Source: Armatimonadota bacterium (lineage in GTDB: Bacteria; Armatimonadota; Fimbriimonadia; Fimbriimonadales; Fimbriimonadaceae). From it: a DNA stretch of 64,000 bases. The DNA is taken from NCBI GenBank assembly GCA_016125185.1, contig WGMG01000002.1:62001-126000 (forward strand), written 5' to 3'. A program made the translations under genes and the position numbers. Within the stretch, counting starts at the first letter, position 1; each line of letters starts with the position of its first letter. The notes under the pieces are model-generated. The model had not been told where the DNA came from, ran no database searches, and was given only the letters and a program-made list of their open reading frames with translations. Shown here piece after piece: positions 30,166-58,626 of the stretch.

Positions 30166-30248
30166 GTTCTTTGACCTCAAAATTTGGACGTTCCTCTAAT
30201 TAAATCGTTTCTTTTCCTCAATGTTACGAAGCTTTTGAAAAAAGCGGA

Positions 30249-32707: not shown

Positions 32708-32716
32708 TACATTCCC

Positions 32717-34128: not shown

Positions 34129-34191
34129 CTTGAAAATGAAACAATTCGTAGCAACTTTACTGCCGCGAAAATTGTACACCACCGCAACAAG

Positions 34192-34218
34192 AAAGCCCTA
34201 GCGAAATGCTAGGGCTTT
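34192..34218 (-). terminator. Terminator after the giant propeller gene
   Basis: AAAGCCCTAGC (34192-34202) / GCTAGGGCTTT (34208-34218), 11-base perfect stem, loop GAAAT; on minus followed by CTTGTTG. It separates the pseudopilin operon from the pilM operon. The plus-strand side also has a T-run (34224-34229). Confidence 0.88.
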
Positions 34219-34239
34219 CGGGCTTTTTTCAGTCTGAGA

Positions 34240-37200
34240 CTAGTTCGGTGGCAAGACTGGGACGATCTTGCGGGCCATCGTTTGCATGAAGATGGACGGA
34301 GCGCCGTTTCGAGTGCTCGACCAAAGCATCCAAATCATGCCTCGTCGGTTGGTGGTTGTACCCACCGGATCGAGGAACAAGAACAGATTGCTTTCGTTCA
34401 GAGGAGCGTCCATGGTGATGAAGTTCTCCGCCGATTCTCCAATGAACGTAACCGGTCGCGAAATGTCCACAGCCGCCGCCGAGCCACCGCCACCCAACTG
34501 GATACGCAGTACCTTATCCTCGTCGTAGCGAGTGAAGTAGATGCGCCCTGCGGCTGGATCGATCTGGTAGGAGCCAGTGTTACCGGTTACCGTCACGCTT
34601 TCGGCGAGACTGCCGTCTGCGTTGACCAAGATCGAGCGTCCGACCCGGATTCCAAGGCGGAGAGTCGACATGGCCGGTCGCGAGACTTGGGCCGACGCCG
34701 CAGCGGAGGTTGCGCTTCGCACAGCCGAGACCACCAGCCGATCCGCGAAGGTATTCGCGCTCGTTGCCGGCTCGTCATTACCAGATGGCGTCTTCCAGAA
34801 GGCATAGCTGGCCGCCGTGTTGGAGCTTTCCAGTCGTCGGTCGAACAGCGCCGAGGTGCTGTTGTAGCCCGCAACACTCGTATCCGAGAGTCGGAGGAAC
34901 GTTGGCGTGTAGGTCACTTGGAGCTGAGCCGACTTCGGTAGGGTCGCACCGGTGAGCTTGACGGTTCCCAGCATCGGGTCCACAACAACTCTTCCACCAA
35001 AGATCGTGGTCGCAGCCTGGATTCCAGTCTGACGATCTTCAACCGGCGTCGACGTGATGATCGAGGAGCCGTTGACGGTGATGTCGAAGTCGCCGCTCCA
35101 AGCCGCGCCACGGACGCGGTAAGCGCCATAGCGAGCATCGTAGACTCCAGTCTCGACCAGCGCGCCGTTCGTTGCCGTCGTACCGAAGGTTCGGTAGTTC
35201 AGGTTCGGATCGAGGCGAGCCATGAAGACTTCGTCGACGTTGCTGTTTCGCAGGCGACCCGTGAAGGTCAGGTCGTATTCGGTCGTCGCCGTTCCATTCA
35301 GGACTGCATTGCGGAGAACGACCGACGGGCTGGATACCGTCTCGAAGCCTGTTCCGAACTGCAGCATCTGCGGGACGGTGAATCCAGTGCTCTCGTTGAA
35401 CGACGTCGCATAGATCGACCACACACCGTTGCTGAACGCTGGGTAGAAGATCGTGACGTTGTTGCCGTTCTGCACCATCGTCGGTCGCCCCTTCAGCGAG
35501 AACGGATCGGCATCGAGGACATAGGTTTGTCCTGGAGGACCGCTTGTGTTGATGCGAGTGACGATGATGCGCGAATCGTCAACGACACCCGAGTCGGTCT
35601 GTCGCTTGGCCTTACCGGTGTACACCACGTAGGTTCGAGCTTGCGAGAGTCCCGCAAGGTCCTTATCACCGTTCGTGGAGAAGACCGGGTTACCATAGCT
35701 GACGTCGCTGGTCAGCGTTCCGCCGATGTTTGTCTGAGAAGCGACACCGCTCGTCAGCGTATTGCCGAAGATGGTCGTGTCAGCCACTGTTGGCAACATC
35801 GCAAGAGCCTGCATCCAACGTCGGTTAGCCGGATCGTCGGGAACGAACTTGTTGAGGTCCCGAATCTGCGAGTCTTGGCCACGCGAGTCGTTTGCACCCA
35901 ACTGACCGCCAGCCACCAGCCCAACAAAGATGTGGGTATTGCGGCTATTCGGCGTCGTGTTTCCGGCGGCCGGATAGAACGAAGGTCGGTTCGAGGCGAA
36001 CGCCACCATCAGGCTACCGCTTGTCAGGCGGAGACCGGACGGCTGCATATCGGCCCACTGCGATGTGTGCGCGGCATCGACGGCGTTTCCGTTATCGACA
36101 ATCGCGTCGGTGTAGTCGCTCGTACCACCTGTCATCTGCGTCTCCTTCACGGTGAAGGACAGAATGAAGGTCGGGTCGCTGAACGACTCGTAGGGGACCA
36201 CCGTACCCGAGGCCGTGTATCCAAGCGAAAGACTTTCGTCGTTCGCACCGATCGCAGGTCCGGTACCTTGCGTATCTTCGACCAGTCGCATCAGCTGCGA
36301 GTACTTGCCAATCGGCGTACCCAGCGGAGGCGTGACGGAGACAATGGTCGGTGAGTTCGCATTGTTCGGAACGAGCGGGAAGCCCGAGCCCGGCAGGTTC
36401 GAGTTGATTCTCGAAGACGGGTTGACAAAGATCTGCTTTCCGCTTGAATCACCAACACGAGGCTTTGCGGCGAAGATCGTGTTCACACCGCCACCGAGGA
36501 CCGGCGAGAACCGACCATCGATATTGGATTGGACGTCCGCCGCAGAATCGAGCCAGATGTCGTCGTTGTTGCCGCCCGACTTGACTTCCCACGGCCAGTA
36601 GAGGCCGCCGGTCACGTCGTACGTCCCCTTGGCGAGTCGGACATTCCACAGGTTCACGTTGCCATCGTTATAGGCAGAGAACGGCTTGAACATGTTCGAG
36701 TACTCGGCCTGGTAGGGGCTGAAGAACGTCGTTGGCGAGAGCGTGCGATACGGGAAGGTTGGCGAGTAGGTTAGCCGAGTATCGTATCCAGCACCCGCAG
36801 ACAGCGAGCCTAGATCGACATTTGGCGTGCCGATCGTGATCTTCTCGTCAGGCGAGACAGCCGCGCCGAGGTTAAAGGTTCGATAGGCTTCTCTCGAGGA
36901 ACCGCCAAACGAACCACTCTGGTCGCTGTCCACGTAGACCGTGAACCGACCTGCGTAGCCCGCCTGCCAGAACGTACCATTCTGATTCGGGATCGAGATG
37001 TTGCCTGCGTTCGCCGGTTGATACTTCGGCACGTCGACTTCGAATTCGAAGGTCGTCGGCACGATCACACGGGTAGACGCGTTGGATTCATCCACAAATC
37101 CAATACCGGATGCGGTGAGAGGACCCTTCAGGGAAACCGGGTTGAAGACCGGGTTCTCCACGTTGCCGTTTGGCTCTTTACGAACCTGAACGTCTTCGCG

Positions 37201-40200
37201 AGCGATGTCCGGATAGTCAAGCGAGTTGTTCGGGAAGTTGACCGGCAAGTCCTCGAAGTTACCGAGGAGAGCGCCGAGTCCTGGCACTAACGCGAACGGC
37301 TTGTAGATCGAGGCCGTGCCGCCCTGCCATCGGAGGTCCTTACGATCGACCTTCACCAAGTCGATGCCTCGGCCCTCGCCACGAAGGAGGGTCACCAAGC
37401 TACGGTCGAACACATAAACGTTCGTCTTCTTGGCCGAGCCGTGTGCGGTGGTACCGACCGACTTGCCGAAGAGCAGTCCGTTGACCAAGCCGACACCGGT
37501 AACCGTCAGGTTCGGCGAACCATTGGCCAGAGCATCCTCTCGCGTTGGATCATTGGTGTAGCCAAGCTGCTCGGTCGAGGTGCCCGATGTCGTAAAGGTG
37601 TTCTCCACCGAAATGCCAATCGGATTAGCGACTTGGTAGTCGAGGTTCGTCAGCGCCGGATTCAGCGTGATCGACTGCTGGGTGTTGTTATTATTCACCG
37701 CACTCGTTCGAAGCTGAACGCGGATCGAACCAGGGCCCGGAGTCTGCGCCGTTCCGCCACCCGCTGTCAGCGGGATTTGGAAAATGGCGTATCCACCGTC
37801 TGAGTCGGCGGAAGTCTTGTCGGAGAACAGCCGCGCTTCGGCAGCGATCGGTCGGCTGGCTCGACCCTCGGTCGTAACCGTGGCCTCGACCACCGGCGGA
37901 GCAACATCGTTACCCGACGTATCCTGCGTCTTGTATGGGAAGTTGTAGGCGATCAGGTAGATCGTCTCACCCCATTCGAACGCAGCTCCGTGCGTACTCT
38001 TATACGGTGCCTTCAGTCGGCCGTACGGCTTCGTGTAAGGCAGGGCCGTATCAATCACGTTTGCATACGGCTCGGTTCCGGTAATGGCACCCGAAAGATT
38101 CTGACGCAACGCAACGAATCCAGCTCGGCTGAGGAACGCGACTTCGCAGTTGCGATACTCATCGTATGCCGGGTCGTTGTCGGCGGCAGTTTCGTTACCT
38201 GGTCCAGGGCCGGTCAGCGTCGAACCTGCGTTGGCAAGGTCAGACCAAGCCAAGAGGTAACCGTTGGTAGTCGCGCCAAAGAGCCACTTGTTCGAAACCG
38301 TCATCGTCGCCTGGATGGAGGCATCCATTTCGTAGCCCCACGCCAGGCGGTTTCCGAATCGCGTCTCTTCACCCAGTCGGGCAAAGAGGGCAGCAAAGCG
38401 TCCGCTGTCGGTTGGGACCATGATGACCGGGAATTCGGCCGGGGCACCCGTGGTGTCGTAGGTAATGATCCTCGTGTAAACGATCGAACCTAGGCCACCC
38501 GACTGGAGTTCGTTGGTTCGCCAAAGCACATCACCCGTACCCGCGTTGATGGCGTAAACGTTTCCGTTCTCGTTCATCGCGAAGACGGTGTCCGGCATAA
38601 CCTGAGCTGCCGCCGTGGGATTGGTGTTCAACTCAGCCGCCGAAACGTAACAGGCACCGCTGAACCAGTCAAGCTGGGTTGGCGGAGTACCAATTGCGTC
38701 GTTGATCGAATTATTCGTCGTCGCCCACAGGGTCGCTCCGGTATCGGCGTTGAGCGCCATGAACCGGGACGGATTGCCGTCCACATAATGCGTACCGAAG
38801 AAGAGCCGGTGGTTCACCTGGTCGAGGACCGGTGCACCCGAGATCGCCGGAAGCGTATCGGACGTCTGTGGCGGGTACTGCCATACGACGCTCGTCTTCA
38901 GTTCTTTGCCATTTGAATAGTTGAAGTCACCCGTTGCATCCAGACAGTAGATTCGTCCCTGTTCGGTTGCTACGTAGATGACGTTCTGTCCACCGGTTGT
39001 TGTGCCTGAGACGACCGATGCGATCGATCCGAGCAGCGTCGGTTGCGGACTGGCCGCTGGGAATGTCTCGGGATAGGTCCACGAGCGGAAGGTTGTTCCG
39101 GGCGTGTGGTTCGTAGCCGAAAAGTCGCCACGTCCCTCCATCGCGATGCTGTAGATACGGCCATTCTTGCTTCCGATGATGAGGAAGTCACGGTCAATTG
39201 GTCCACCGGGCGTCGTCACCGTAAGGCGTTGGACGACGGCAGTGCTGAGGTCGAAGTCCGTTGGCATCGTCGCTTCGAGCGTGTCGGATTCGCCATCAAA
39301 CTTCTGATACACGCCGCCCGCGTTCGGGTCAGTCGGATCCTGGCCCGGCTGAAGGTTCGGATCATTGGCTGCGTCCGTGGAGCTGGGGTATGTCCAGTAA
39401 CAGGTCGTCGTTCCATCGGCATTGCCGGTTGCGTCCAGGCAGTGGAGGTAACCGCGCTCATCGGCGACGATGACCACCTTCGTCAAAACCGGATCGACGC
39501 CAGGAGTCTGTCGGACATAGGCCTCGGCTTCGACGGGCGTCGAAGTGATCTGCGTACCGACGGCTCCCACAAAGCGGAATTGGTCGACGTAGATGCTCTT
39601 ACCCGCGTCCGTAGCGTTGGCACTATGGTTCGTCATCATGACGGTCAGCGGATTCGCGACCGAGTGTACATAACGACGATTACCAAGGCGGACCCAGCCA
39701 CCCTTGCTCATGTCGAGTGTGAACTGCCCCGCCGAGACGCCGCCCTCAAAGATTTCATATTGAGCGGACTGAGCGTAGTTGACGCCCGCCACATCGCCGC
39801 CGACGTACATGTAAACATCGTAAGAACCTTCGGCGAGATCGGTCTGCGGATCGACCGTCACGTTCTGCGATACAGCTACCGTATCGACGGTTCCCTTCAA
39901 ATACTCGCCGCCACGCGCATTCGCGTTATCGGCCGCTGAGGTGAATCCTGGGGAAGCGATGAACCGCACGTTGGTGTCTTCAAACGACGTTGTGTTGGTT
40001 CCTTCCTCAAGTGGGCTGTAGCGCCATCGCTCGGTGCCGGTGTTGTAGTCATAGCTACGAACAACTCCGTTACCAATGCTCAGCGGTTTGGCTGTCCAGT
40101 CTGTGGAAGTCACCGACGGAATGCTGTTGGGGTCGATCTGGACTTCGTTTCGCGCACCGATGACTCGAATGTCCGTCGTGCCAAAGCCAGCGGAAGTTGG

Positions 40201-41235: not shown

Positions 41236-41255
41236 GCTTTGCCTCAAGCTGCTCA

Positions 41256-44200
41256 TTAGCGTCGATCTGCGAAGACGGGCAGTCTCAAACCTCGGGTTCC
41301 TTCGATGGGACCGTAGCGAAGCTTGATGCTGCGGGTGTTGAATCCAAGGTTCACGATGTTGGTCGAGAAGCCTTGGCTGACGTAGGCGGCGCCCTGAAGG
41401 CCGCTCACCGGGTCCAGTCGTCCGTCGAGTTGAAGTACTTCACCGGTGTAGTTGTTGCCGTAGTACAGGGTCTTGCCAGAGTATCCGTTCACTACGACGA
41501 CATTGTCCGTGTCGAGCCGTCGCGCGTACGTGGCGAAGAATCGGAGCGGATTATCGCTAGTCGGTACTCCGCCGGTTCGTCGCATCGATTGGAAGGCCCA
41601 GTTGGGCAACATCCACCGAGTCGTGAGAACGGTTGGGTTCGTGGGGTCCGTGACAACCTCATAGACGCCGGTTCCGTCCGTAATCATGATCGTCATCTGC
41701 GGTGTGCCTCCGAGAGTCGCGGCCGGAACCAGCGAAGCCGTCACCGACTGCAGATTGTTCATGACGTGGACGCGCGGAGCGATGTCGGCCGTCGTGCTCG
41801 TCGACCAGTTGCCGGTGTTGAAGTCCCAGACTCGACTGTGATCCACTGCCGGAGTAGCGAACTGGCTAAAGACTCGGTAGCCACCCGGAAGAGTGTCATC
41901 GAACATCACCACGCCGCCGTTTCCAGTGTTCGAGGTGCGCTGATCGTCAGGATTCGTGTCGCCGATCACCGAGCTTCCGGTGTTCGGTTCACCCGAGTCG
42001 ATGCGCGACGGAGCTTTTCCGCCCACGCCAGCGACCACGACGAAGTGACCGGTACCCACTTGGATTCTCGACAGCGAGTTATAGGCGAATCCTTTGCCAG
42101 AAATTGCCGTCGGGGAGTGCCAGAGCAACACGCCCGCCGCAAGCGGCTTGACGATATCGCCCGTTGCCGGATCTTCTTGATAACGATCGACGATTTCGAT
42201 CAATCGGTCGTTACCTTGGTCGGCGATCAGGTAATGCACCCAATACTCTGGCCAAGTTACAGCAAACGGGTTGTTGGCAGCGGAAACTTCAGATACGAAT
42301 GTTGCCGCATCTCTCGGATTTGCGAGCTTCAGCGATTCGCCGCTTGCGTAACCGCTCGGAACGAAGTTTGCATCCAGTTGGAACTCTGAGATATTTCGGC
42401 TTACGCTGCCGTTCGGGTTCATCCTGAGGACACGATTCTGATTGCTGTCCACCACCAAGAGGTCGTTGCTGTCGCCAACTGTGTACACACGGGTCGGGCG
42501 GTCGAACTTCGTCAGATCGGCCCCTCCAGTGTCGCCAGCGGTGAGCCCGGTCAGCGTTTGGAGCGAACTGTCATAGATGACGTTGCCACTTGGGTCGAAC
42601 GCCGCAATTCGTCCTTCATCCGCCACCCACATATCGGAGCGTCGGAAGCAGAATACGTTCTGATCGTTCCAGGCCAAAACTGCGCCATCGCCGCCAACCA
42701 CGCCGTAGCTAGCGTCGTGAGCGCCGGTGCTGGACCGAAGAGTGCATTGGTTGACACGAATCTTGAAGTCGTCAAACGAAGTGCGTCCGTTCTCAGCCGA
42801 ATTCTTGGGGACTTGCGGCCAAACATACAACTGGTTCGGATACATGTTTGTAAAGTCGTTCTCCGTGGTAGTCCAGCCCGATGCTGCGCGCAGGTAGTCC
42901 AGAGAGATGACCTGTCGCATGTACGGACGGCTGTCATCGGCAACGATCTGAGCAGGCACGAAGTTGGACGGATTCGCATCGTACGGGAAGTGCGTCTGGC
43001 TGGTCTTCTGCGCCACGCTCGGATCAAAGTCTGTTCGGAGAGCCGTTACGTAGCCATCCGGTCCAGGAACCGATCCGGTAAATTCCAAAGCCTGAGGCAG
43101 AATCGAGGAACCACTGACAAACACCGTGTTACCACTTGCGTAGGCACTGCTGCGCACGGTCATGCCGTGGAGGATGACGTACCATTTCAGCGGGTTCCAT
43201 CGGTCGCCAAGTTGGGCGGGGTCAATGATCGTATCTGGTCGACCCGATTCACGAAGAATGATGGGCTGACTCGTATTGATACTATCGATGATCTGGCCAC
43301 GCTGAGCCGTCATCATGTTATCGATTCGAATGGTGGAGCCGACATCACCTGCTTCCTGCTCAATACGGAAGGATGCGGGCGGCAGAACGCTGAACGTGTT
43401 CGGCAACGTCGGGTCGGATGAACGAGCAAAATCGGGTTGGACGATCGCCGCGTTCGAGCTCACACTTCGACCAATCTTGATCTCGCGAGAACTGGTGTCG
43501 TCCTTGAAACACAGAAGGGCCGACGCAGGAACTGTCAGACCGGCCGGAGTGAACTTGCTGCCGCTGACCGTGACGAAGACGTTGCCATCGCGAACAACCG
43601 GAGCACCCTGGAAGCTAGCCTTAATGAAGTTGCCACCGAGATACTGGCTCAGGCTCAAGGCGCCAAAAGTCAGGTATTGAACCGGATCGTTATCGGGCAG
43701 GACGGGCGGAACCGTTTGCGTACCACCGCTATAGCTAAACGTATGCTGCGGGTAGAGATCCCAGCGGTACACCATTCGGAAGATGCCGCGTCCTTCTTCG
43801 CGAAGCGCAAAGAAGGAACCAAGATAATCGTTGGTACCAGAGCTTCCCGGAGAAAGATTCTGCGTGCTACACGTTGCGTAAATCGTGCCGTTCGGCGAAA
43901 GCGCGACGCCGTCAACGATATGCCGTTGCGCGGTCGCGGGAGTCGGGAACTGCAGTCGTCCTCGTTCCACCGAACCGATCGTGGTCGGGAATGCAGCACC
44001 CCAGTCGATCGTGTAATCGACTCGGACCGGATTCTCGGGATCGAGATCGGCAGGCGGCCAGGTTGCGGCCGGTGCCAAGGTTAGCGAAAGCGTTCCTTGA
44101 CTCTGCGATATCGCGCCGGAGAAGACGGCCGCCATTTGCGCAGCGGTGTAGACTGTTCCGTCCGTTCGGACGAGCGAAACATGAACTGAAAGCGGATCGC

Positions 44201-46166
44201 CGGTGTTACCGATGTAAACCGGAAGACCGCCTTGATCTGAGGCACGGGTCGTGATCGTCACCACTCCGCCAGCTTCGCTGACCAGACGAGGATGCTCGCC
44301 CTTGGCCCCAAGCCACACACTCATGATTCCTGCATTCGCCAGATTCGGCGACGCTTGCGGCGTGAGCGGGAGGTACATGACCTTATCCAGACCACCGGAG
44401 TTATCCAAAATCGGAATGTAACCAACCGTCGGCGAACTAGAGATTCGCTGAATCGCGTTGCCGGTGCCGCCAAAGACGAACGGGTTCGAGCTTGCCGAGG
44501 TCGATCGCACGAGTTGAAGCGTGCGCAGGTCGACCTGCCAAACGCGACCGATGTAGGTTCCCGCCGTCGAAACGGTATCCACCACATAGGCGATACCTTC
44601 GTGAACAGTCGGCGCCTTCGGCACTTCGCCTGGAGCCAGACCAGCCGTACCGCCCAGACCTGGAGTCAAGGCTGCAACCGGCGTAAGAGCTTCGGTTGCC
44701 GGACAGCGGCGTGTCACCGGATCAAAGATCGGATAAACCAACAGTCGTCCGTCACCGGTTGTTACAAGAAGCTGGTCGGTCGGCACGCCAGTCGCAGGGT
44801 TCGGGATCTCGGCGCACACCGCGCTCGAAATTCCACTTGCAACCGGAGAGGTCGCAAAAATTAGGTCATCCTCATTTCCGAGGTTCGCATCTTGGAATCC
44901 ATCGTCAGGATTGCCGTCTCGATCCACATCGGACCGCGGGTTGACGTCGTGACAAAAGACTCGGTCGTCGGCTACCGAGAAGGACATTCCCTTATAGATA
45001 ACCGGCGGTCGATAGTCCTCGACTGGGGCCGTGTAGGTCGCAGACGAAGAGGGGGTTGCGTAGGGAGCGGCCCACGACTGAAGGAGCGGAGCGCCCTCAT
45101 CGATGAAGCTACTATAGTTGCGGCGCGATCCAGCACCAGCCTGACGCGATTGATTCGCAAGCGAAATAGCGTTGACGGCGAACTTGGCGGCGGCTGTGGC
45201 GTACTGGCCAGCCACTGACTTCCCTGCCGTTTGTCCACCTGGGTCGGCGGCGAAGTATTCGCGGTTCAAATTGGATCCCACTCGATTGAGCGCTTCGCTA
45301 ACACCGCGAGTAGTCACCACGACATAGCCGTCGCCGATGTTGGCGACAGAAGTAGTGGGCGGTACATTCTGCCCGGCTCTTGTGACAGGTTGAAGTCGAC
45401 TGTAGGAACTCGTATTGCCGACAATGTCCAACATAAGCGGTGCGACTGCGCCGGCTCCTTCACTTGCCGGATCGCTTGGCGCCATGCTTATGTTATTGAT
45501 TGGCTGGTTCAGGAAAAGCGGCCCCACCGTGAGCATGCCGACCTCGGATGACGCAAGACGGAACGGATATCGCACCAATCGGCTGTTAAAGTCTGCCTGA
45601 ACAATCAGTCTGTCTTGGGGCGGATCGTAAACCTGGAAGGAAATGGGCCCGCCCTGAGTTTGGTCGAGCCAACCATAGGTGTAGTCGATCCACAGCACAC
45701 CGCCCTTGTCCACGAATCGTCGCAGTTTCTCACGATCCGAAGGGCTGACGGCCAAATTCGGAGTCGTGACCTGCAAAAGAGCAACATCCAGCTTGGCAAA
45801 GTCGTCGTCCGTCATGTTTGCGACGTTTACCCACCAATAGCGTACGGTTCGCTTGTTGACGGCGCTTCCTGCTGCCGGAGTGTTGTTATATCGCGCCGCG
45901 AAAAATGCCGTTTCGCTTGCATCCAACCAGCCCGGAGCCAGCGGATTGTAGATATTCCAGCCGGCCGGCTTAACCGACGTGTTGGAATCCAAATTGAACC
46001 AGACGAATGGGCCCGTTAAGCTTTGCCCCACTCCAGTCGGCTGATGGTCGCCGTTCAAATGCAGATACGCGGCCCGAATGTCAACATTCCGGCTCGCGTA
46101 TGCCTGCTGTGCGTAGGCGGAAACCGCCGCGACCGCTAGGCTGACGACTGTAAGTAGTCTCTTCAT
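41256..46166 (-). CDS. Giant exported beta-propeller-like protein, 1636 aa
   Basis: Signal peptide MKRLLTVVSLAVAAVSAYAQQ. The N-terminal part (about 90-165) contains LDVALLQVTTPNLAVSPSDR and KLRRFVDKGGVLWIDYTYGW, like the DUF4159/glutamine-amidotransferase-like fold used in surface proteins. At about 400-415 DVDRDGNPDD is an EF-hand/dockerin-type calcium loop. The C-terminal third has NHL/propeller-like strands (YTVGDSNDLLVVDSNQNRVL, YLIADQGNDRLIEIVDRY). It abuts the PilX-like gene and overlaps the next giant by TAATG. Function unknown; linked to pili by operon position. Confidence 0.72.
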   Translation of the reverse strand: MKRLLTVVSLAVAAVSAYAQQAYASRNVDIRAAYLHLNGDHQPTGVGQSLTGPFVWFNLDSNTSVKPAGWNIYNPLAPGWLDASETAFFAARYNNTPAAGSAVNKRTVRYWWVNVANMTDDDFAKLDVALLQVTTPNLAVSPSDREKLRRFVDKGGVLWIDYTYGWLDQTQGGPISFQVYDPPQDRLIVQADFNSRLVRYPFRLASSEVGMLTVGPLFLNQPINNISMAPSDPASEGAGAVAPLMLDIVGNTSSYSRLQPVTRAGQNVPPTTSVANIGDGYVVVTTRGVSEALNRVGSNLNREYFAADPGGQTAGKSVAGQYATAAAKFAVNAISLANQSRQAGAGSRRNYSSFIDEGAPLLQSWAAPYATPSSSATYTAPVEDYRPPVIYKGMSFSVADDRVFCHDVNPRSDVDRDGNPDDGFQDANLGNEDDLIFATSPVASGISSAVCAEIPNPATGVPTDQLLVTTGDGRLLVYPIFDPVTRRCPATEALTPVAALTPGLGGTAGLAPGEVPKAPTVHEGIAYVVDTVSTAGTYIGRVWQVDLRTLQLVRSTSASSNPFVFGGTGNAIQRISSSPTVGYIPILDNSGGLDKVMYLPLTPQASPNLANAGIMSVWLGAKGEHPRLVSEAGGVVTITTRASDQGGLPVYIGNTGDPLSVHVSLVRTDGTVYTAAQMAAVFSGAISQSQGTLSLTLAPAATWPPADLDPENPVRVDYTIDWGAAFPTTIGSVERGRLQFPTPATAQRHIVDGVALSPNGTIYATCSTQNLSPGSSGTNDYLGSFFALREEGRGIFRMVYRWDLYPQHTFSYSGGTQTVPPVLPDNDPVQYLTFGALSLSQYLGGNFIKASFQGAPVVRDGNVFVTVSGSKFTPAGLTVPASALLCFKDDTSSREIKIGRSVSSNAAIVQPDFARSSDPTLPNTFSVLPPASFRIEQEAGDVGSTIRIDNMMTAQRGQIIDSINTSQPIILRESGRPDTIIDPAQLGDRWNPLKWYVILHGMTVRSSAYASGNTVFVSGSSILPQALEFTGSVPGPDGYVTALRTDFDPSVAQKTSQTHFPYDANPSNFVPAQIVADDSRPYMRQVISLDYLRAASGWTTTENDFTNMYPNQLYVWPQVPKNSAENGRTSFDDFKIRVNQCTLRSSTGAHDASYGVVGGDGAVLAWNDQNVFCFRRSDMWVADEGRIAAFDPSGNVIYDSSLQTLTGLTAGDTGGADLTKFDRPTRVYTVGDSNDLLVVDSNQNRVLRMNPNGSVSRNISEFQLDANFVPSGYASGESLKLANPRDAATFVSEVSAANNPFAVTWPEYWVHYLIADQGNDRLIEIVDRYQEDPATGDIVKPLAAGVLLWHSPTAISGKGFAYNSLSRIQVGTGHFVVVAGVGGKAPSRIDSGEPNTGSSVIGDTNPDDQRTSNTGNGGVVMFDDTLPGGYRVFSQFATPAVDHSRVWDFNTGNWSTSTTADIAPRVHVMNNLQSVTASLVPAATLGGTPQMTIMITDGTGVYEVVTDPTNPTVLTTRWMLPNWAFQSMRRTGGVPTSDNPLRFFATYARRLDTDNVVVVNGYSGKTLYYGNNYTGEVLQLDGRLDPVSGLQGAAYVSQGFSTNIVNLGFNTRSIKLRYGPIEGTRGLRLPVFADRR

Positions 46167-49100
46167 TTACTTAGATTCTCCAAAGTAGGCCAGAGTCGGG
46201 CTGACCGGGAGCCGCGGCATTGGCGGCAACTGGTAAGTGACTCCGTTCACAGTGCTCGTGCGAATCATCGCATTCGGATTCGCCGGATTGGCCGCCGTCA
46301 CCGTGGAATCGAAACCAAACACGCCACCTACTCGACCAGTTGCGAGGGTCGGATCGTAGGAGATCGTCAGGTTCGAGGTGTAGGGTCGGGCCGCAGGGTT
46401 CGCCTTGGTCCAAGCCGATACGTGGCTGTAAGGAATGTAGTGCGGATTGCCCGTAGAACCGTCGAAGGTGCCCGCCTGCTTGGTGGGAATCCATCCCCAC
46501 TTCTTCAGCCATTCGTTTTGAACTGAGATTGGTGGCGGCAGGTTCTCGGCGATGGAACCCACGATGTCGATTCGAACATCGATCGGTTCGCCGTAGAACG
46601 GTGCATTCGGCATATTGCCGTAGTTCTCAAGTCGATCTTTCGCAGCCTGGTTTCTTGCATCGACCAGCGATGCGCCACCGGACATCAATTTGGCGACCTC
46701 ATTCTCGAAAGTGTCTCGGCGATCGTTCGGGTCCATGTTGTACCAGTCGCCCGGAATCACGAAGAACGAACCTTCCTCTGCAAAGATTGAGGCCTCGATC
46801 TTAACATCGAGCGGAACGGCTGCGGCTCGGGCCAACAGGTAGTTGCCGCTCGCCTGCGTACCGAACTGGGTCAGGCCAAGCGAAACGCTGTTCGAACCTT
46901 GAATCAACATTTCGTAGTTGTTCGTGTTAAACGTGTTCAAGAACCGGTTGTTGACGATGCTCGCGGTTGCCGCCGTCGGGTCAACGAGCGGAAATGCGAC
47001 CGACTCAAACTTCGGCGACTGTTGGAAGACCTCGGTGCCCAATCCGTAAATATCTCCGAAAGCAGGAGGCGGTGCTGGGTTGTTGATGGCCGCCCAAATC
47101 AGCTTGGCCGAGTTGGTGACCGAATTGAGGACTTCAAACTGATACTGATCGTTGCCCCCGAACAATTGGCTGCCACGGTTCACCTTGATGTTGAAGAAGG
47201 AGTTCGAGGGTCCCGGGTTGGAATACTCCAGCGCCTGGGTCAGCAGGAGGTTCGTGCTCTCCGTCACACCCGTACCATTTGCATCAGCCGGATTGGCCGG
47301 ATTGAATTCCTTGTAGGAAAGCGGAGCCGGGAGCCAGTTCTGGTAAGGCAGCGTGTTATTGGAGTTAGCCGGATCGCGGTCGCTCAGCGGGAAGTCAACC
47401 TGAAGATTGGTTTCACCATCGGGCGAACTGAGATGATCCGGACTGTAGCCGTTGATGCCAATGCCACCCTGTTCGACCTGAGCATTTGTCTCAGACGACG
47501 GGCCAACGAACATGGTCGGGTTCAGCGTAACGTAATCCTTCGCCATCAGCATCAGGGCCGATCGGCTCGGACGGGTCAAGCGGTTGTTCGTGATGACAGC
47601 CGGATAAGCGGCGGTGACATCGTTCGCCTGAACACCCTTCAGGATGCTGCCCTCGATGTAAACCGTCTTGTTCGATACGACGGTCATCTGAACGTCGGTG
47701 GGAATCACACCACGAACGCGGACGTTCCCTTCGAAGTACACAACACCGTTGAATACCGGCCCGAGACTGAAGTCGCTCGGCGTCAGCGCATCATTGATCG
47801 AGGCCGACATGCCCTGCGTGAGGGTGTTGATAATGTGGATTCGACCATCGTTGCCATAACCCACTCGGTATCGCATCGAGGTCAAACCACTATCCGTACC
47901 GTCCGCCCGCTTCCAGGTTCGCTCTTCTGGCTCCTGGTCGGGGTGGGCGTTGCGTTGAATAACGAAGCCGTCTTTGGTGAGGAGCAGGAACGCGCCGACC
48001 GGAATATAGAACGGTCCGTGCCATCCGGTTCGGAAGTTCGAGCTCGACGAAGCGTCGCCGAACGAGCTGAGCCAGTCCTGGACGAGAGAGGAAGTCCCAC
48101 CGGCGATGCGGCGGCCTTGTTCGTCGTCAGGAACCTGGTAGTCGCTGGAGTTATCGACGTACGGGCCTTCGCCGTGGCCAAAGAGACCGGTGTTGCCCGA
48201 CGGACCGAGAATGCCCGAATCCTTTGTCAGCTTCAGGTAGCGATTGGTGTTGGCGCTTTCGGCCACATCCGCGCTTGAGAGCATCGAAGCCGGCGTCAGG
48301 TAGCCAACGCCTCGAACATCGTTCGAGCCGTCTGCATCCGACAAACCGTCGCGGAACACGCCGCCAAACGTCGAAAAGGCCGGATTGTAGCTGTCGAGGA
48401 CCATGTTAGCCGACGTCACCTGCCAGGAGTTCGTCGTTCGATCCCACCACGACTTATTGACCGTGAGGGTTCCACCCGAAGCCGACTGAATCGCGCCCGA
48501 AGCCTCGATTCCGTCGCCCATCGTCTGGTTCAGGTCAGCGATCATCGGACCATAAACTCGAAGGTCGCCATTCACGCGCATCGAACCACCACTCGGCAGT
48601 CCCATGATTGCCGCGCCCGCGCCCGTCGGAGAAAGGTTATAGGCATCCTGCGTATCGCCAACCTGGCGAGGGGCATCAACCGGTGTACCATCGGCACCCG
48701 GAGTCTCTCGATACATCGCGCCACTGTCCGTAGCAAAGCCCATCTCGATTGGGTGAGTGCTCTTATACTTGTTGGTTTCGAACCGGGCGTAGTCGATCAG
48801 GCCGATTTGAGCGAGGGCCAGGAGCTTACGACTAGATGTTTCCTTGCCGTCGTAGTCCTTCATCTTGGCGTAGGCTGCGTCAAACCCCGCTTGGTCGGCA
48901 AAGTTCTGGAATTGAACTGTCGCATTGGCTGCCACGGTCGTCGGGTCCTTGGCGTTCACCTCGCCTTGTCGACCGATTGATTCGATCTTCAAGTAATTTC
49001 GAGCCAAACCGGGATCATAAAATGTCCCAACACCGGTGCTAGAGAAGATGCTTTGGTCGCCCGGAGCGTAGGTCACGCGCACCAATGCTCGACCACCTTT

Positions 49101-49505
49101 GTAGTCGATTCGGAAGAATGGGCCAAGGCCGTCCGGGCCTCCGTTATCGATTCGAGTGGTTCCCGGGAAGTTCAGAGGAACACCGCCAGCCGTCGCGGGA
49201 GGACGCAGGTAGTAAGCGTCTGGGTCGCGAGTGGTGTCTGGAACGAGCTGAGTCAGCGGCGTCGCCTGCCCACGCCAGTCGGCACCGAGGTCCGAATTGA
49301 CGAGTTGGGACTGAGCATATCGGACTCCCGACTCGGCGAAGTCGCTGTTTACACCACGAGCTTTCGCATTCGAGGCGCCGCGAATCGTTCGGCTCAAGAT
49401 CGACGCGAAGGCCGCGCCAAGAATCAAGAGGACGAACAGAACCAAGAGCGCGATGATCAGCGTCTGACCATGCTGCATTCGTGGACGGTAGTTTCTTCTC
49501 TTCAT
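46167..49505 (-). CDS. PilX-like large exported protein, 1112 aa
   Basis: The N-terminus MKRRNYRPRMQHGQTLIIALLVLFVLLILG is a type III/PilX-like signal and membrane helix (residues about 12-36) with Gly13 before the hydrophobic stretch but no Glu at +5, as in PilX. The remaining 1070 residues are a beta-rich Asn/Gly/Pro/Thr-rich ectodomain of no known family. Typical PilX is under 200 residues. ATG 49505 lies 6 bases after the PilW-like gene. It probably is a minor component of the pilus tip complex. Confidence 0.68.
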   Translation of the reverse strand: MKRRNYRPRMQHGQTLIIALLVLFVLLILGAAFASILSRTIRGASNAKARGVNSDFAESGVRYAQSQLVNSDLGADWRGQATPLTQLVPDTTRDPDAYYLRPPATAGGVPLNFPGTTRIDNGGPDGLGPFFRIDYKGGRALVRVTYAPGDQSIFSSTGVGTFYDPGLARNYLKIESIGRQGEVNAKDPTTVAANATVQFQNFADQAGFDAAYAKMKDYDGKETSSRKLLALAQIGLIDYARFETNKYKSTHPIEMGFATDSGAMYRETPGADGTPVDAPRQVGDTQDAYNLSPTGAGAAIMGLPSGGSMRVNGDLRVYGPMIADLNQTMGDGIEASGAIQSASGGTLTVNKSWWDRTTNSWQVTSANMVLDSYNPAFSTFGGVFRDGLSDADGSNDVRGVGYLTPASMLSSADVAESANTNRYLKLTKDSGILGPSGNTGLFGHGEGPYVDNSSDYQVPDDEQGRRIAGGTSSLVQDWLSSFGDASSSSNFRTGWHGPFYIPVGAFLLLTKDGFVIQRNAHPDQEPEERTWKRADGTDSGLTSMRYRVGYGNDGRIHIINTLTQGMSASINDALTPSDFSLGPVFNGVVYFEGNVRVRGVIPTDVQMTVVSNKTVYIEGSILKGVQANDVTAAYPAVITNNRLTRPSRSALMLMAKDYVTLNPTMFVGPSSETNAQVEQGGIGINGYSPDHLSSPDGETNLQVDFPLSDRDPANSNNTLPYQNWLPAPLSYKEFNPANPADANGTGVTESTNLLLTQALEYSNPGPSNSFFNIKVNRGSQLFGGNDQYQFEVLNSVTNSAKLIWAAINNPAPPPAFGDIYGLGTEVFQQSPKFESVAFPLVDPTAATASIVNNRFLNTFNTNNYEMLIQGSNSVSLGLTQFGTQASGNYLLARAAAVPLDVKIEASIFAEEGSFFVIPGDWYNMDPNDRRDTFENEVAKLMSGGASLVDARNQAAKDRLENYGNMPNAPFYGEPIDVRIDIVGSIAENLPPPISVQNEWLKKWGWIPTKQAGTFDGSTGNPHYIPYSHVSAWTKANPAARPYTSNLTISYDPTLATGRVGGVFGFDSTVTAANPANPNAMIRTSTVNGVTYQLPPMPRLPVSPTLAYFGESK

Positions 49506-49511
49506 CGGGGA

Positions 49512-51812
49512 TTACCTTATAAAGTTGCGGACGTTGGCAGTGGCCTTCATCGTGACAGTCTGCGGGAACGGCACATCGGATTGCGGATAGTTGCGAATCG
49601 TCATGATGACCTGCATCAACTGCCTTGTGTCGTACTCAACTCGAACCACGTCGTCGGGCGCCGTGAATTGGAATTTGTACGCTACACGTATTCGACCGGG
49701 AACGTCGTTGGTTGTTCCAGGAATTCTCATAGTCGCCGGAATTGGGACTTCTGGCGCAGAGCAGAGTTGCACGTAGCCCACCTTGAACCGAGGTTGGAAG
49801 ATCGCGCTAACCAAGCTCGTTCGGTCGTACACGGCCGGCGGAGTCGGGAAGCCGAGGGCAGCATAACCTGCCGGCGTCGGTTCAGCGATGTTTGCATAGT
49901 TGATGCGGTACTCGTTCGGACCCGGCTCGTGGTTGACGCGGTGGTATCGAACTTCGAAGCCATTGTTCGGGCCAGGATTCTGGTCGGGACCATAGATTTC
50001 TTCGCTTCCCGGAACAATGATGGCTCGCGGGAACATCGCCAGCGGACTCATCGAGCCGTCGCCCTGCGGAATCGTGCGCAGGTCGATGAATCGATGGGCG
50101 CCACCCGTCTCACCTAACTGAGAAGGCACACCGTTTCGACCATACTTAGCGTCATCCCAAATCTTGTCAAAGACTCGGTTGATATTGAACCGACCGAATG
50201 TGTTGTCCCAATACGGGGAGTCCGAGAAGACTCCGGTCGCTAGACCAGTATCTGTCGAAGGCGTCAATCCCGTATCTGTATTCACCCATCCGCTCGAGAC
50301 CGTGCTCTGTGCCGGCACCTGAGGAAGGTTCAGGCTGTTCAAGTCAAGCGGGCTAAAGAGGTTCGCCGAGGCGTTCGGGTCCTTGGTGACATCACCCACT
50401 TCCCAGTTATTGAAGCTGCCGATGAGCCGTCCGGTAAGGTTGTTCGTGAAGAACGGCATGAACTTCGCGTATACGTCTGCATTCGCCGAGCTCAGCCAGC
50501 CGCTCACCATGTTGGCGGCGTTCAGGCCGGCAGTGAACGGGTATCGGCTATTCGGATCATATCCGTGGCTCTTATAGGCCGTTGTGTAGGCGGTGATATC
50601 GAAGGTCTCGATACCGCTACCTGCCGTGGTATCGGGAATTCCCGACGTATTAGGATCGACGTAGAACGTTGCAAAATTAGCGTTGTCCGTCCGGCCAACC
50701 TGGTAAGCGGTTCCACCGCCGTTGTTCCAGTTGGAACCATAGGACCGGACCACCACGTTGCTCCACATCGAGAACTGTCCGGCGTAGACCTCGGAGCCGA
50801 TCTGATCGGCGCTCTCCGATTCGCTACCCAGCGCTGCCGCAGCTTCACCATCCACGCCATCGCCTTCCACGTGCGACGGACGGAAGAGCACTAGAGGAGT
50901 GATGCGGGGCGACCATACGCCCGCCGCATTCGTCATCTTTACGAGCCGTTGTGCCTTGTCGATCTGCGGTTGGATCAGGTCGTAGCGGGTCATTTCCGTT
51001 TCGACCTTAGCGACCTTCAGCCAGTTCTGAATGCGCATCGCCTTCGAGTCGTTATTGACCGGCGTGCCAACTGCTGCATTGGTGGCGAGGAAGAAGTCGG
51101 GATCATCCAGGTTCGGGGTTCGGTTCGTTGCGTCGGTCGCGTCGAAGAACTTAGCATTGACCTGAGGGATGAAGTTTCCGCTTCCCGGAGGCACCTCGGT
51201 CATGACAACCGGCTGAACCTCGGCCGAATAGAGAACGAAAAGGTTGTCTCGTCCGCCGCCGCGGGTCATCAGAAGCCCGTCGTAAGGGTTGTTGTAATTC
51301 TTGAACGGATCGCGCAATCCAATCCAATAGCGCTTGATCGTCGTTCCCGCCGCGAGAGGAAGCTGGACTTGCCCCTTGGCCGACTGAAGCGTCGGGTCTT
51401 CTTTGCCCGTGACAGGATCGATGAAGCCGCCGCCAGGACCACGCTGACCAACCTTTTGGGGCAGAACCAGATCGAGCTTGGTGTAGTTCATGCCGATCTT
51501 GACATAGCCGCCCGGAGTGGTGACTACCGCGCCGGTGTCGTCGATGCCCTTGGTCGGAATCGGAGCCACGATACTAACTCGGCCCTTGACCCCTTCCACA
51601 TCGCGTACGGCAACTGCTTCGCCGATTTCCTTGGACAACTCTTCGGTGAGAATTCGAGCCTTATCTTGCGCGTCGGAGTACGCCTGAGCCGTTCGCGTCG
51701 CATTGAAGGTCTGAACCATCGGGATCGTGATGATGGTCATCAGGATCGCCGTGATCGCCATGACGGTGATCAACTCGATCAGGGTGAAAGCGTACTGTCG
51801 CCGGTTTCTCAT
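49512..51812 (-). CDS. PilW/PulJ-like minor prepilin, 766 aa
   Basis: Start ATG 51812 overlaps the upstream stop (CAATGAG). Leader MRNRRQYA, then FTLIELITVMAITAILMTIITIPM: cleavage after Ala8, methylated Phe9, Glu13 at +5. So it has a class III prepilin signal with Ala in place of Gly at -1. The ectodomain is about 740 residues against about 200-250 in PilW/PulJ, beta-rich, with no named domain. The longer frame from 51863 is disfavoured since it would hide the prepilin leader. Confidence 0.78.
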   Translation of the reverse strand: MRNRRQYAFTLIELITVMAITAILMTIITIPMVQTFNATRTAQAYSDAQDKARILTEELSKEIGEAVAVRDVEGVKGRVSIVAPIPTKGIDDTGAVVTTPGGYVKIGMNYTKLDLVLPQKVGQRGPGGGFIDPVTGKEDPTLQSAKGQVQLPLAAGTTIKRYWIGLRDPFKNYNNPYDGLLMTRGGGRDNLFVLYSAEVQPVVMTEVPPGSGNFIPQVNAKFFDATDATNRTPNLDDPDFFLATNAAVGTPVNNDSKAMRIQNWLKVAKVETEMTRYDLIQPQIDKAQRLVKMTNAAGVWSPRITPLVLFRPSHVEGDGVDGEAAAALGSESESADQIGSEVYAGQFSMWSNVVVRSYGSNWNNGGGTAYQVGRTDNANFATFYVDPNTSGIPDTTAGSGIETFDITAYTTAYKSHGYDPNSRYPFTAGLNAANMVSGWLSSANADVYAKFMPFFTNNLTGRLIGSFNNWEVGDVTKDPNASANLFSPLDLNSLNLPQVPAQSTVSSGWVNTDTGLTPSTDTGLATGVFSDSPYWDNTFGRFNINRVFDKIWDDAKYGRNGVPSQLGETGGAHRFIDLRTIPQGDGSMSPLAMFPRAIIVPGSEEIYGPDQNPGPNNGFEVRYHRVNHEPGPNEYRINYANIAEPTPAGYAALGFPTPPAVYDRTSLVSAIFQPRFKVGYVQLCSAPEVPIPATMRIPGTTNDVPGRIRVAYKFQFTAPDDVVRVEYDTRQLMQVIMTIRNYPQSDVPFPQTVTMKATANVRNFIR

Positions 51813-53833
51813 TGGATTGCATCCCCTCGGTGAAGGTAGGTTTCTTTCGTCGTGACACTCCACTCTTTCGCCCAGTTGCCAAAACCGGTGTTCAAGTTCA
51901 CAACCGGATCGGTACCCAAAGCGAAGGAGTTGATGTTGTAGAAGACTTTAGCCAGAACCGAGACGCCCTTTACGTCAGTGACCGCATAGGCCATCGACTC
52001 AGGACTGCTTGTATCCTGCGCGATGTTGGTCGCCGCCACACGGTCGTTCAGGTCGATCGAAGGCAAGGGCTGAGCCATGCCGTCTCCCGATCGGTACTTG
52101 ATCATGAATTCCGCCCCCTCAAGCGTTTCGGCTGTCGCGCCGTTGTAGTATCGAACTTTGCCGATCGAAACCTTGCGGTTCACATCCATCGGCGGGAAGT
52201 AGATACGAGTCGGAAGTCCACCCAAGGCTGACGATCCGCCAACGTAATACTGAGCCGCGCCGGGAATATTGTAGGTGAAGTCATAATGCGACGGGTTACG
52301 CGCAATCTGCACCGCCCACTCTTCTCGGCCCATGTAAAAAATTCGGAGTACACGACCAGTGACGTTCGTCATCACAGTTCCGCCCGCCGTCGCGACTGCC
52401 TGGGTCAGGCCGTTCGTGTCGTCATTATCGATATCGAACAACGTCACGTAGCCGTTCGTCTTGTCGATCTTCATCGTCGGGCTGCCGTTGTACGACTCAA
52501 GCAATTGCCCGCCCGTCTCTACATCGATGATCAGAACGTTGTCGGCATCCTTTGTGTTAGCGCCTGGCACCTGCGTGTTATTGACGAAGCAGATGTCTTC
52601 CATGCCTTGGTTCGGCGTGGGCGGCGGTACCGCGATCGAATCGTGATCGGGGGCCGACTTACCGTCTGGGCCGTTGACCGAGTTGGTTCGAATGGACGGA
52701 ACCGCCAGCTTCAGAACTTTCGGCAGGCCCGCCGGACTGCTGGAGCTCACGCGAAAATCTTCGTGAAGGATTCGCCAGTCGCGGACGTCGTAGTCGATGC
52801 GCGCGACATAAGGCTGCCGCGTCGCGCCTGCTCGTTCTTCGTATTTATTGTAGAGGCCAGGGTTAAACAACACCTCACCAATCAGTGGGTTAATCACCTT
52901 GTAGGTGAAGATTTCGTTGGGATCCCAAGCCGACGCCGTAGTAATTTCGCGGTAAAGCCGAGCGATCTTGATTGAATTAACTTCGACGTTGACAAGATTC
53001 TCGCCGCCGCCTAGCACACCCGGGATCGACGCCACCGGTACCACAACGTAGCCCGTCGTAGACGTACCGATCGTCACGATTTGCGACGTCAGAGTCCGAG
53101 TAAAGACATTGCCGCCGCTGTTGATCGTTGCCGTCAGCGAAACTCGGAAGTTGCCCGATACGGTCGCCGACGCCGGGAAGGCGATTTCAACAAGATTCGT
53201 GTCTTCGTTGCCGACGGCGAATTCATAGTCGCGCAAACCTTCATAGTCCGTCGTCTCATGAACCGCCCGTCGGTACATGTCGCGTCCGTAGATCAGAAGT
53301 TGACCAGGAAGCGGAGCGCCGTTCGTAAAGTCGGGTGGCCCCAGCTCCAGCATGGCAAGGCAACCGAAGTAGTCGTTTGCGGTCGGCGTGCCAGGTGTCA
53401 GCCATTCAGGGGCGGAAAGACGGTGAGTCTCACCGATCACACGCCGGAAGACGTTAGGCCCGGACTGAAGCTGCCAAGCTCGGTCGGTTCCCTGCACGAT
53501 TCCCGTCGAGTCAATACCGGTCGTGATCGGGCTGTACTCGGTATTCGAAATATTGGAATCTACGACTGGGGTGTAGACACCCGAGATCAGTTGGAACTGG
53601 ATCGGTAGAATGGCCTCCGGGACCAGGTCCGGCCTCGCCTTCAAGGATTCGAGAGCCGATCGGCCAAGACCGACCGCCACCGAGTTGTCCCTGGCACGGT
53701 TCAGGATTCGAATGCCGCCCGGAAAGATTTGGGCGATGGCAAGAATCCCAACCAGGAATACAACGATGACGACCAAGACCTCAACGAGGGTCGTCCCGCC
53801 GATACGGCTAAGTTTTCGCGATGGAGAGATCAT
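51809..53833 (-). CDS. PilV-like minor prepilin, 674 aa
   Basis: Leader MISPSRKLSRIGG, then TTLVEVLVVIVVFLVGILAIAQ: cleavage after Gly13, Glu18 at +5, and the VEV form typical of PilV/PulI. The ectodomain is several times the usual length (PilV is about 170-200 residues). It follows the FimU-like prepilin by 16 bases and is followed by the PilW-like gene with a 4-base overlap. Confidence 0.78.
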   Translation of the reverse strand: MISPSRKLSRIGGTTLVEVLVVIVVFLVGILAIAQIFPGGIRILNRARDNSVAVGLGRSALESLKARPDLVPEAILPIQFQLISGVYTPVVDSNISNTEYSPITTGIDSTGIVQGTDRAWQLQSGPNVFRRVIGETHRLSAPEWLTPGTPTANDYFGCLAMLELGPPDFTNGAPLPGQLLIYGRDMYRRAVHETTDYEGLRDYEFAVGNEDTNLVEIAFPASATVSGNFRVSLTATINSGGNVFTRTLTSQIVTIGTSTTGYVVVPVASIPGVLGGGENLVNVEVNSIKIARLYREITTASAWDPNEIFTYKVINPLIGEVLFNPGLYNKYEERAGATRQPYVARIDYDVRDWRILHEDFRVSSSSPAGLPKVLKLAVPSIRTNSVNGPDGKSAPDHDSIAVPPPTPNQGMEDICFVNNTQVPGANTKDADNVLIIDVETGGQLLESYNGSPTMKIDKTNGYVTLFDIDNDDTNGLTQAVATAGGTVMTNVTGRVLRIFYMGREEWAVQIARNPSHYDFTYNIPGAAQYYVGGSSALGGLPTRIYFPPMDVNRKVSIGKVRYYNGATAETLEGAEFMIKYRSGDGMAQPLPSIDLNDRVAATNIAQDTSSPESMAYAVTDVKGVSVLAKVFYNINSFALGTDPVVNLNTGFGNWAKEWSVTTKETYLHRGDAIQ

Positions 53834-53849
53834 AGTTCTTTCTCCAGCC

Positions 53850-54740
53850 CTAGGGCATCATTCGCCATGCTCGTTCGGACATTTGCTTAGAATCGAGCGG
53901 TCGAGCGCTGCCACCGAGGAAGAGAACGATGTCTTTGCTTCCACCAGGCGTCAAGAAATTGGAGTTGTAGTCGCGGTAGAACGTATCCCACGTCACCACC
54001 GTCGTGTCGGGCGGGTTGCTGTATCCAAGCTGGCGCGGATCATCCAGCGCACTGCCTATACCCAAACCAAAAGTCGTCCAGAAAAGCGTGTAGTGCATCT
54101 CGTAGTAGGAGTTGCCGTCCGAGCTCAGTTTGGTCGGACCTACGTCGTAACCGCTAACGGCATAGAATCGGCCCGCGCTTACATCGGACGGGTCCGTCGT
54201 TTCGTTAGGAGCCGTCCCCGGATTCTGCAAATAGTATTGAGGCGCGCCAGTATAGTCAGTCGAATATTGTTGCCTGGCGCTTAGGATATCGTCATTTGTA
54301 TCGATCACGCCGTCACCGTTCAGATCGAGAATCGGTGCGCTACCGACCGTTCGAGTGTCGGCCTGCGGCCAGATTCCGGGAACCATCAAGTCGTACGCGC
54401 TACGATTGATGCCACCCTTCAGGGTGTCGATCGAGGTGATCCGCTTGGGATACATCGGACCACGAACGAGGTTGGCAGGGACAACGGTGACGCCGTTTTG
54501 GTACTCGTAGGGACTGATATAGCCAAGCAGGTGCGGCGGATATCCCCCTTGGTCGTCTCGATACAACTGGAGTGCCGACCGAATCGAGTTCATCGAAGAC
54601 ATGTCAGCGCTCTTATAGGCATTGAGCTTGACCCGAGCGAAAACTGGAAATATGATCGCAGACAGCAAAGCGATGATCGCAATCACCGTTAATAGCTCGA
54701 TCATTGTAAATGCGCGTTTCTTCATTTCTACCGTTCCCAT
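53850..54740 (-). CDS. GspG/FimU-type prepilin, 296 aa
   Basis: Prepilin signal KKRA-FTMIELLTVIAIIALLSAIIFPVF, with Glu at +5 of the mature protein and Ala at -1. The following SADMSSMNSIRSALQLYRDD and QGGYPPHLLG match the long-helix plus turn of GspG-type pseudopilins. It starts at ATG 54740 (purine-rich upstream) or ATG 54725, the latter giving the shorter leader MKKRA. No other obvious major pilin is in the window, so this may be the main pilin or the first minor one. It follows pilD by 136 bases. Confidence 0.82.
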   Translation of the reverse strand: MGTVEMKKRAFTMIELLTVIAIIALLSAIIFPVFARVKLNAYKSADMSSMNSIRSALQLYRDDQGGYPPHLLGYISPYEYQNGVTVVPANLVRGPMYPKRITSIDTLKGGINRSAYDLMVPGIWPQADTRTVGSAPILDLNGDGVIDTNDDILSARQQYSTDYTGAPQYYLQNPGTAPNETTDPSDVSAGRFYAVSGYDVGPTKLSSDGNSYYEMHYTLFWTTFGLGIGSALDDPRQLGYSNPPDTTVVTWDTFYRDYNSNFLTPGGSKDIVLFLGGSARPLDSKQMSERAWRMMP

Positions 54741-55896: not shown

Positions 55897-55913
55897 ATGT
55901 CTTCCCTAACAAA

Positions 55914-55942
55914 GATGCCCGTTGCAACTTGCAACGGGCATC
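55914..55942 (-). terminator. Long hairpin between pilC and pilD
   Basis: GATGCCCGTTGCAA (55914-55927) / TTGCAACGGGCATC (55929-55942): perfect 14-base arms separated by one base. On minus it is followed by TTTGTTAGG, and the ATG of pilD is 18 bases beyond. Probably a terminator or attenuator between the pilBTC and pilD-pseudopilin units. Confidence 0.75.
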
Positions 55943-55976
55943 GTACCCTTTTCCGGGCGAACTCCGAGTCCTTTCC

Positions 55977-57209: not shown

Positions 57210-57221
57210 TTCTTTCTCCTA

Positions 57222-58604: not shown

Positions 58605-58626
58605 ATACTCTCTTTCTTACAAAATA

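Follow-up and report, generated by a model that had tools for sequence, protein, structure and literature searches.

What kind of structure is encoded by a minor-pilin operon that ends in two giant genes? The operon lies in a stretch of 64,000 nucleotides (hereafter the window) from the 4.52 Mb genome of a Fimbriimonas-like member of the Armatimonadota, a bacterial phylum that lives in soil and water. Six closely packed open reading frames (ORFs) run along the minus strand from position 54740 to 34240. They encode, in this order, a FimU/GspG-like, a PilV-like, a PilW-like and a PilX-like prepilin, followed by two very large proteins that we call giant 1 and giant 2. The original prediction, made from the sequence alone, had recognized this order and had read the genes as a PilY1-like system of unusual size. 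We confirmed the six ORFs at this place and found their order conserved across loci. We estimate a probability of roughly 65% that the six genes encode a giant pilus-tip adhesin or priming complex in which a ComZ-type tip pilin is the foundation and the giants take the place that PilY1 has elsewhere.

The six-gene block sits between pilB-T-C-D (upstream) and pilM (downstream). As predicted, every product after the first prepilin is oversized, with lengths of 674, 766, 1112, 1636 and 2338 residues. Giant 2 had been given as about 2331 residues, which is its length if the eighth codon is the start; the first ATG, which yields 2338 residues, overlaps the giant 1 stop by 1 nucleotide. Inspection of the sequence showed that the giant 1 ATG directly follows the pilX stop. 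Summed, the tip would comprise about 6,800 residues; assuming 110 Da for each, its mass would be near 0.7 MDa, and we know of no PilY1 tip of that size.

These sizes are real but are not peculiar to this genome. Giant 1 was matched in 60 of 61 relatives, and across the phylum a giant 1 profile matched 240 of 291 genomes, including 173 of the 194 rated high-quality. We therefore rejected the idea that the giants are one genome's peculiarity, and this conservation also excludes chance. The PilX-like profile matched 272 of the 291 genomes, and the spread of giant 2 was counted on loci rather than with a phylum-wide profile. The sizes are kept as well. Among complete ORFs, the median lengths are 281 residues for the FimU-like, 654 for the PilV-like, 735 for the PilW-like and 1043 for the PilX-like proteins, 1578.5 for giant 1 and 2303.5 for giant 2. 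The giant-bearing cassette is thus the phylum-wide norm.

We counted neighbors in 79 named loci using blastp on plus-strand ORFs, with a threshold of >45 bits and at least 600 bases of room. Most of the loci are Armatimonadota by title. A few are not, such as Methanoregulaceae (L118) and Propionibacteriaceae (L187), and we take these genomes for mislabelled or mixed bins because the same cassette is present. By blastp, adjacency was found for fimU-pilV in 62 of 62 loci, pilV-pilW in 61 of 62, pilW-pilX in 64 of 66, pilX-giant 1 in 74 of 74, giant 1-giant 2 in 62 of 67 and giant 2-pilM in 44 of 56. Starting from giant 1, pilX was found upstream in 74 of 76 loci. Searches with tblastn recovered pilW in L112, pilX in L181 and L186, giant 2 in L154 and pilM in L121. 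With both methods, pilX precedes giant 1 in all 76 testable loci and giant 2 follows giant 1 in 63 of 67; the refuting case named with the original prediction, giants lacking pilin genes in most relatives, was not observed. Among the four giant 2 misses, L141, L144 and L165 had at most 1,311 bases left, and in L187 no giant 2 was found in the 6.7 kb after giant 1. The pattern recurs in 32 further loci from other genomes (own genome excluded): pilX directly precedes giant 1 in all 32, and giant 2 scored >45 bits in 29 (not in L096, L100 and L102). One metagenome-assembled genome (MAG), UBA2387, carries two cassettes (L154 and L160). The giant 2 of L154 is 99.9% identical to that of L120 (UBA6659), which suggests a mixed bin.

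The PilX-like protein (1112 residues, P0003; 46167–49505, minus strand) would be the tip pilin. PilX_N matches it weakly (E 0.021). No Pfam family was detected in any of 21 PilX-like members at E up to 0.01, and GspK was weakly matched in three of them. Sequence searches of the Protein Data Bank (PDB) gave no match at E up to 1 with the PilX-like profile and only chance-level matches with the single protein. We built a structure model from 68 sequences, with a predicted local distance difference test score (pLDDT) of 86 and a predicted template modelling score (pTM) of 0.88. In the second of two structure comparisons, Thermus ComZ (6qvi_A) ranked first, with Z 11.8, a root-mean-square deviation (rmsd) of 4.7, 293 aligned residues and 14% identity. 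The next matches were carbohydrate-binding modules (CBM) of the CBM35 and CBM6 families (Z ≤8.5, about 115 residues aligned), all on residues 667–898. This stretch (46812–47507, minus strand) appears to hold a non-contiguous CBM35/CBM6-like jelly roll. The pilin helix lies at residues 15–70 and the C-terminus is strongly conserved, which fits an inserted mass placed between the two. The prepilin motif, GQTLIIA, is without Glu5, and a PilX-type motif occurs in 63 of 65 complete ORFs. GspK and PilX are described as likewise lacking Glu5 (PMC7541494). ComZ is reported as a pilin that carries a large beta-solenoid, inserted ahead of its final strand; a position at the pilus tip was argued for it, and DNA binding was shown (PMC6561018). 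We model the PilX-like protein as a ComZ-type tip pilin, in that the model combines a pilin fold with a large inserted domain and matches ComZ. This predicted ComZ-like fold is a new point, which the original prediction had missed; the DUF4159-like start of giant 1 and the fact that these sizes are normal for the phylum had likewise escaped it.

Giant 1 (1636 residues, P0002; 41256–46166, minus strand) begins with a signal sequence, as judged by inspection, followed by a DUF4159-like domain and two modelled propellers. DUF4159 has a glutamine-amidotransferase-like fold. Its match in the window protein is weak (residues 134–163, 45678–45767, E 0.018), and with a limit of E 0.01 the DUF4159-like N-terminal part was detected in 22 of 28 giant 1 members, the best at 2e-9. 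The DxDxDG calcium-type loop that had been noted in giant 1 is present at residues 413–426 (44889–44930), at the start of the first propeller. In an alignment of 63 giant 1 sequences, conservation reaches 90% or more at D413, D415, D417, G418 and D421 of the loop, and the stricter pattern DxDxDG-x(1-3)-DDG occurs in 51 of 79 giant 1 ORFs. A model of residues 388–1587, built from 63 sequences (pLDDT 85, pTM 0.81), ends 49 residues before the C-terminus of the protein. Structure comparison of this model assigns propeller 1 (residues 388–1177, 42636–45005) to the PQQ/BamB type with insertions, the matches including Scone-E (Z 18.2) and BamB 9cnz_B (Z 16.2, rmsd 3.0, 300 aligned). Propeller 2 (residues 1175–1587, 41406–42644) is assigned to the NHL type, with matches to 7djl_C (Z 16.9) and NHLRC2 6g7w (Z 16.2). 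From these matches, we infer eight blades for the first propeller and six for the second. Among the 28 members, PQQ_2 was detected in five and NHL in four. The top Foldseek matches of the model had poor TM-scores, and the leading ones were spread across both propeller domains. A PDB sequence search with the single giant 1 found nothing. The closest named loci to the giant 1 of the window are those of a Fimbriimonas sp. MAG (69% identity) and an Armatimonadetes MAG (67%).

Giant 2 (2338 residues, P0001; 34240–41256, minus strand) likewise starts with an N-terminal signal sequence by inspection, and continues with a PQQ propeller and a long C-terminal part. The PQQ-type strands that had been seen in it correspond to a PQQ_2 match (PF13360, E 1.8e-12) at residues 749–1005 (38242–39012), and PQQ_2 was found in 11 of 15 giant 2 members. 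Both giants therefore have propellers, two in giant 1 by model and one in giant 2 by sequence. Golvesin_C also occurs in 11 of the 15 members, immediately ahead of the propeller in both members for which coordinates were inspected, and the giant 2 of the window has two Golvesin_C-similar stretches by eye. The C-terminal 1,200 residues lie beyond the propeller. A PDB sequence search with the single giant 2 found nothing. In L104 and L183, giant 2 was read as two ORFs, which may reflect a frameshift or a split gene.

All four cassette pilins carry an N-terminal methylation motif that would place them among type IV prepilins. The N_methyl model (PF07963) passes its cut-off on the FimU-like and PilW-like proteins only, and the PilV-like and PilX-like proteins fall below it. 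The FimU/GspG-like prepilin (296 residues, P0006; 53850–54740, minus strand) matches PF07963 at E 1.9e-5 and TIGR01710 gspG below its cut-off at E 3.2e-8, and has the prepilin site AFTMIE with Ala at −1. The PilV-like prepilin (674 residues, P0005; 51809–53833, minus strand) matches TIGR02523 type_IV_pilV at residues 13–69 (E 2.5e-5, below cut-off), and a Glu5-type prepilin motif is present in 47 of 47 complete PilV-like ORFs. For the PilW-like prepilin (49512–51812, minus strand; PF07963 E 6.5e-7), the mechanical ORF has 783 residues from an upstream GTG at 51863; we preferred the ATG start, which gives 766 residues, because that ATG overlaps the pilV stop by 4 nucleotides. Ala instead of Gly at −1 was seen in 20 of 52 FimU-like and 34 of 53 PilW-like motif-bearing ORFs (L109–L187), as well as in the window. 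A DxNxDG calcium-type loop is also visible by eye in the FimU-like protein, around residues 137–149. In the source genome, the N_methyl model matches 68 places, with open frames mostly of about 250–340 residues.

The cassette product is probably a large adhesive pilus tip. In Myxococcus, FimU, PilV, PilW, PilX and PilY1 are described as a priming complex, which forms a plug in the secretin vestibule and remains at the pilus tip (PMC7541494). The same gene order suggests that the ComZ-type PilX caps the fiber and carries giant 1. We infer the function, and every step beyond gene order and fold, as follows. The FimU-PilV-PilW-PilX stack would form as in Myxococcus or as in GspI-J-K, with the ComZ-type PilX as the cap. 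Giant 1 would dock on PilX as PilY1 does, via its calcium-stabilized first propeller, and giant 2 may dock on giant 1 or beside it, further out. The complex would prime assembly, remain at the tip and bind surfaces, where the ligand would probably be a polysaccharide, contacted through the CBM-like jelly roll, the Golvesin_C-type domains and the propeller faces. PilT retraction could then pull. Fimbriimonas ginsengisoli is described as fimbriate and non-motile, with pili suggested to serve attachment (PMC4072686), and this fits an adhesive tip.

Several results weigh against this reading. Foldseek gave no match for the PilX-like model at E up to 0.001, with ComZ outside the best 50 matches. 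Golvesin_C had no match in the giant 2 of the window at E up to 1. The secretin would have to let through an assembly of about 6,800 residues. In three loci of deep families (L192, L193 and L201; f22 and f23), pilM comes directly after fimU-pilV-pilW-pilX and no giants intervene; a pilus there can do without them. PF05567, the PilY1 family, had no match in either giant of the window at E up to 1, and with the limit set at E 0.01 it matched none of the 28 giant 1 members and none of the 15 giant 2 members. The part of the original prediction that concerned gene order, propellers and a calcium-type loop stood, whereas the kinship with PilY1 is unsupported by sequence. A PF05567 scan of the phylum was negative in all 291 genomes but also in all 14 controls, and so proves nothing alone. 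The PilY1 structure 3HX6 was not among the best 50 matches of either giant 1 structure comparison, which is no evidence of a different fold. We conclude that the giants are PilY1-like in position, as the gene after pilX in a minor-pilin operon, and in build, and that membership in PF05567 is unsupported. Giant 1 could still be a true, very diverged PilY1, homologous via the first propeller and the calcium loop, which would concern its origin and not its function. The same slot, a signal sequence, an N-terminal domain, a PQQ-type propeller and the calcium-type loop speak for this, but given the uniform failure of PF05567 in the window, the family members and the 291 genomes (the last with no positive control) we regard it as unlikely. 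Our tentative proposal, to which we give somewhat less than even odds, is that the PilY1 slot was filled independently in the Armatimonadota by a ComZ-type tip pilin with a glycan-binding jelly roll and two non-PilY1 propeller giants.

Two other functions were considered against the adhesive tip. The cassette could form a DNA-receptor tip like Thermus ComZ-PilA2, with the giants as accessory parts of a DNA-uptake pilus. The modelled ComZ-type fold would agree with this, as would the DNA binding reported for Thermus ComZ (PMC6561018), and DNA uptake may be an alternative or an addition, since ComEC (E 6.5e-42) and a protein of the HHH_3/ComEA type (E 2.1e-20) are encoded in the genome. However, the added domains look carbohydrate-binding, and adhesion and uptake are not mutually exclusive. 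We also know of no propeller giants after Thermus ComZ, and we consider a dedicated competence tip quite improbable. The giants might instead be exported cargo, surface proteins pushed out by the pilus or a pseudopilus and not stable parts of the tip. Their signal sequences (by eye) and propeller and jelly-roll builds are typical of exoproteins; GspK contacts substrates of the type II secretion system, and PilY1 has been called an analogue of such substrates (PMC7541494). Yet the position after pilX is fixed and the starts are coupled across the phylum, and pilT, for retraction, lies within the same block, which makes cargo very unlikely.

The loci without giants were taken from twelve chosen for a weak PilX-like match or for an absent or weak giant 1. 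L200 (f21) has a diverged giant 1 followed by a PQQ-propeller ORF of at least 2129 residues, and no giant was seen in the other eight, of which L199 had only about 1 kb of room. A pilin cassette can therefore exist without giants in some deep-branching families. In a quick-method tree of 46 PilX-like proteins, the giantless ones cluster, with three label changes. With no established root and with long branches for many of these sequences, the tree would fit either gain or loss of the giants. Two 1.5 Mb genomes of the same family (G152 and G153) are without giant 1 and have only a weak PilX-like match; G152 has a PilX-like ORF of 600 residues (L196).

The neighboring genes, also on the minus strand, belong to the type IV pilus operon. 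Upstream (54877–60387) are the genes for the prepilin peptidase, PilC, PilT and PilB (Pfam A24, T2SSF, T2SSE and MshEN). Downstream (27758–34066) are pilM (PilM_2, E 1.2e-47), two genes labelled pilN and pilO by gene position only, and T2SSC-like, STN (E 9e-4) and secretin (E 1.2e-32) genes. The secretin appears split (27758–30180), with an STN-only protein of 240 residues with a glycine-rich tail beside a 556-residue secretin that has its own weak STN. Between giant 2 and pilM lie a terminator-like hairpin of 13 perfect pairs (34191–34219, followed by a T-rich run on the plus strand) and a sigma-70-like match (34128–34099); shuffled sequence gave such matches at least as often across the region that was scanned.

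If the slot was filled independently, pilus tips would be modular sockets, with an exchangeable adhesin on a pilin scaffold that is retained. A whole phylum would then have a tip made of a ComZ-type pilin and non-PilY1 giants, and the principle of a tip pilin without Glu5 carrying a propeller adhesin would be separable from the PilY1 family itself. The competence-type tip of Thermus and the adhesive tip found in Proteobacteria and Myxococcota would also be connected, and the testable question would arise of how so large a tip crosses the secretin. Two large conserved proteins of these genomes, hitherto without assignment, would thereby gain a likely role.

We compared the cassette to known systems. 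A search of the open-access literature gave no paper linking ComZ with Armatimonadota or DUF4159 with pili, nor any on Verru_Chthon; subscription papers were mostly outside this search. Like BamB/PQQ and NHL proteins, the giants have propeller folds, but context and architecture differ, and a common fold shows no shared function. The Verru_Chthon cassette proteins A–D of NCBIfam, which are tandem and large, are also prepilin-like. However, the matches stay far below the curated cut-offs, and it is the prepilin N-terminus that TIGR02599 and TIGR02596 match: TIGR02599 matches the PilW-like protein at E 1.1e-5, with 24.8 bits against a cut-off of 256.5, and TIGR02600 matches 2 of 21 PilX-like members (best E 0.0065). 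The pilA1-pilA2-pilA3-comZ cassette of Thermus likewise has a large pilin in which a sizeable domain is inserted into a pilin fold, as modelled here, whereas the PilX-like protein is about twice the length of the 518-residue ComZ chain, has an extra CBM-like jelly roll and, in most families, precedes two giants. With the FimU-PilV-PilW-PilX-PilY1 clusters of Pseudomonas and Myxococcus, the cassette shares the gene order, a signal-sequence propeller protein directly after pilX, a PilX without Glu5 and a calcium-type loop that may be equivalent in position. It differs from them in lacking PF05567, in a DUF4159-like N-terminus in place of the vWA or DUF4114 of PilY1, in the two propellers of giant 1, in the second giant and in pilin ectodomains that are several times larger. 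We would class the cassette as a new type IV pilus tip variant, which combines the FimU-PilV-PilW-PilX order with a predicted ComZ-type tip pilin and two propeller giants.

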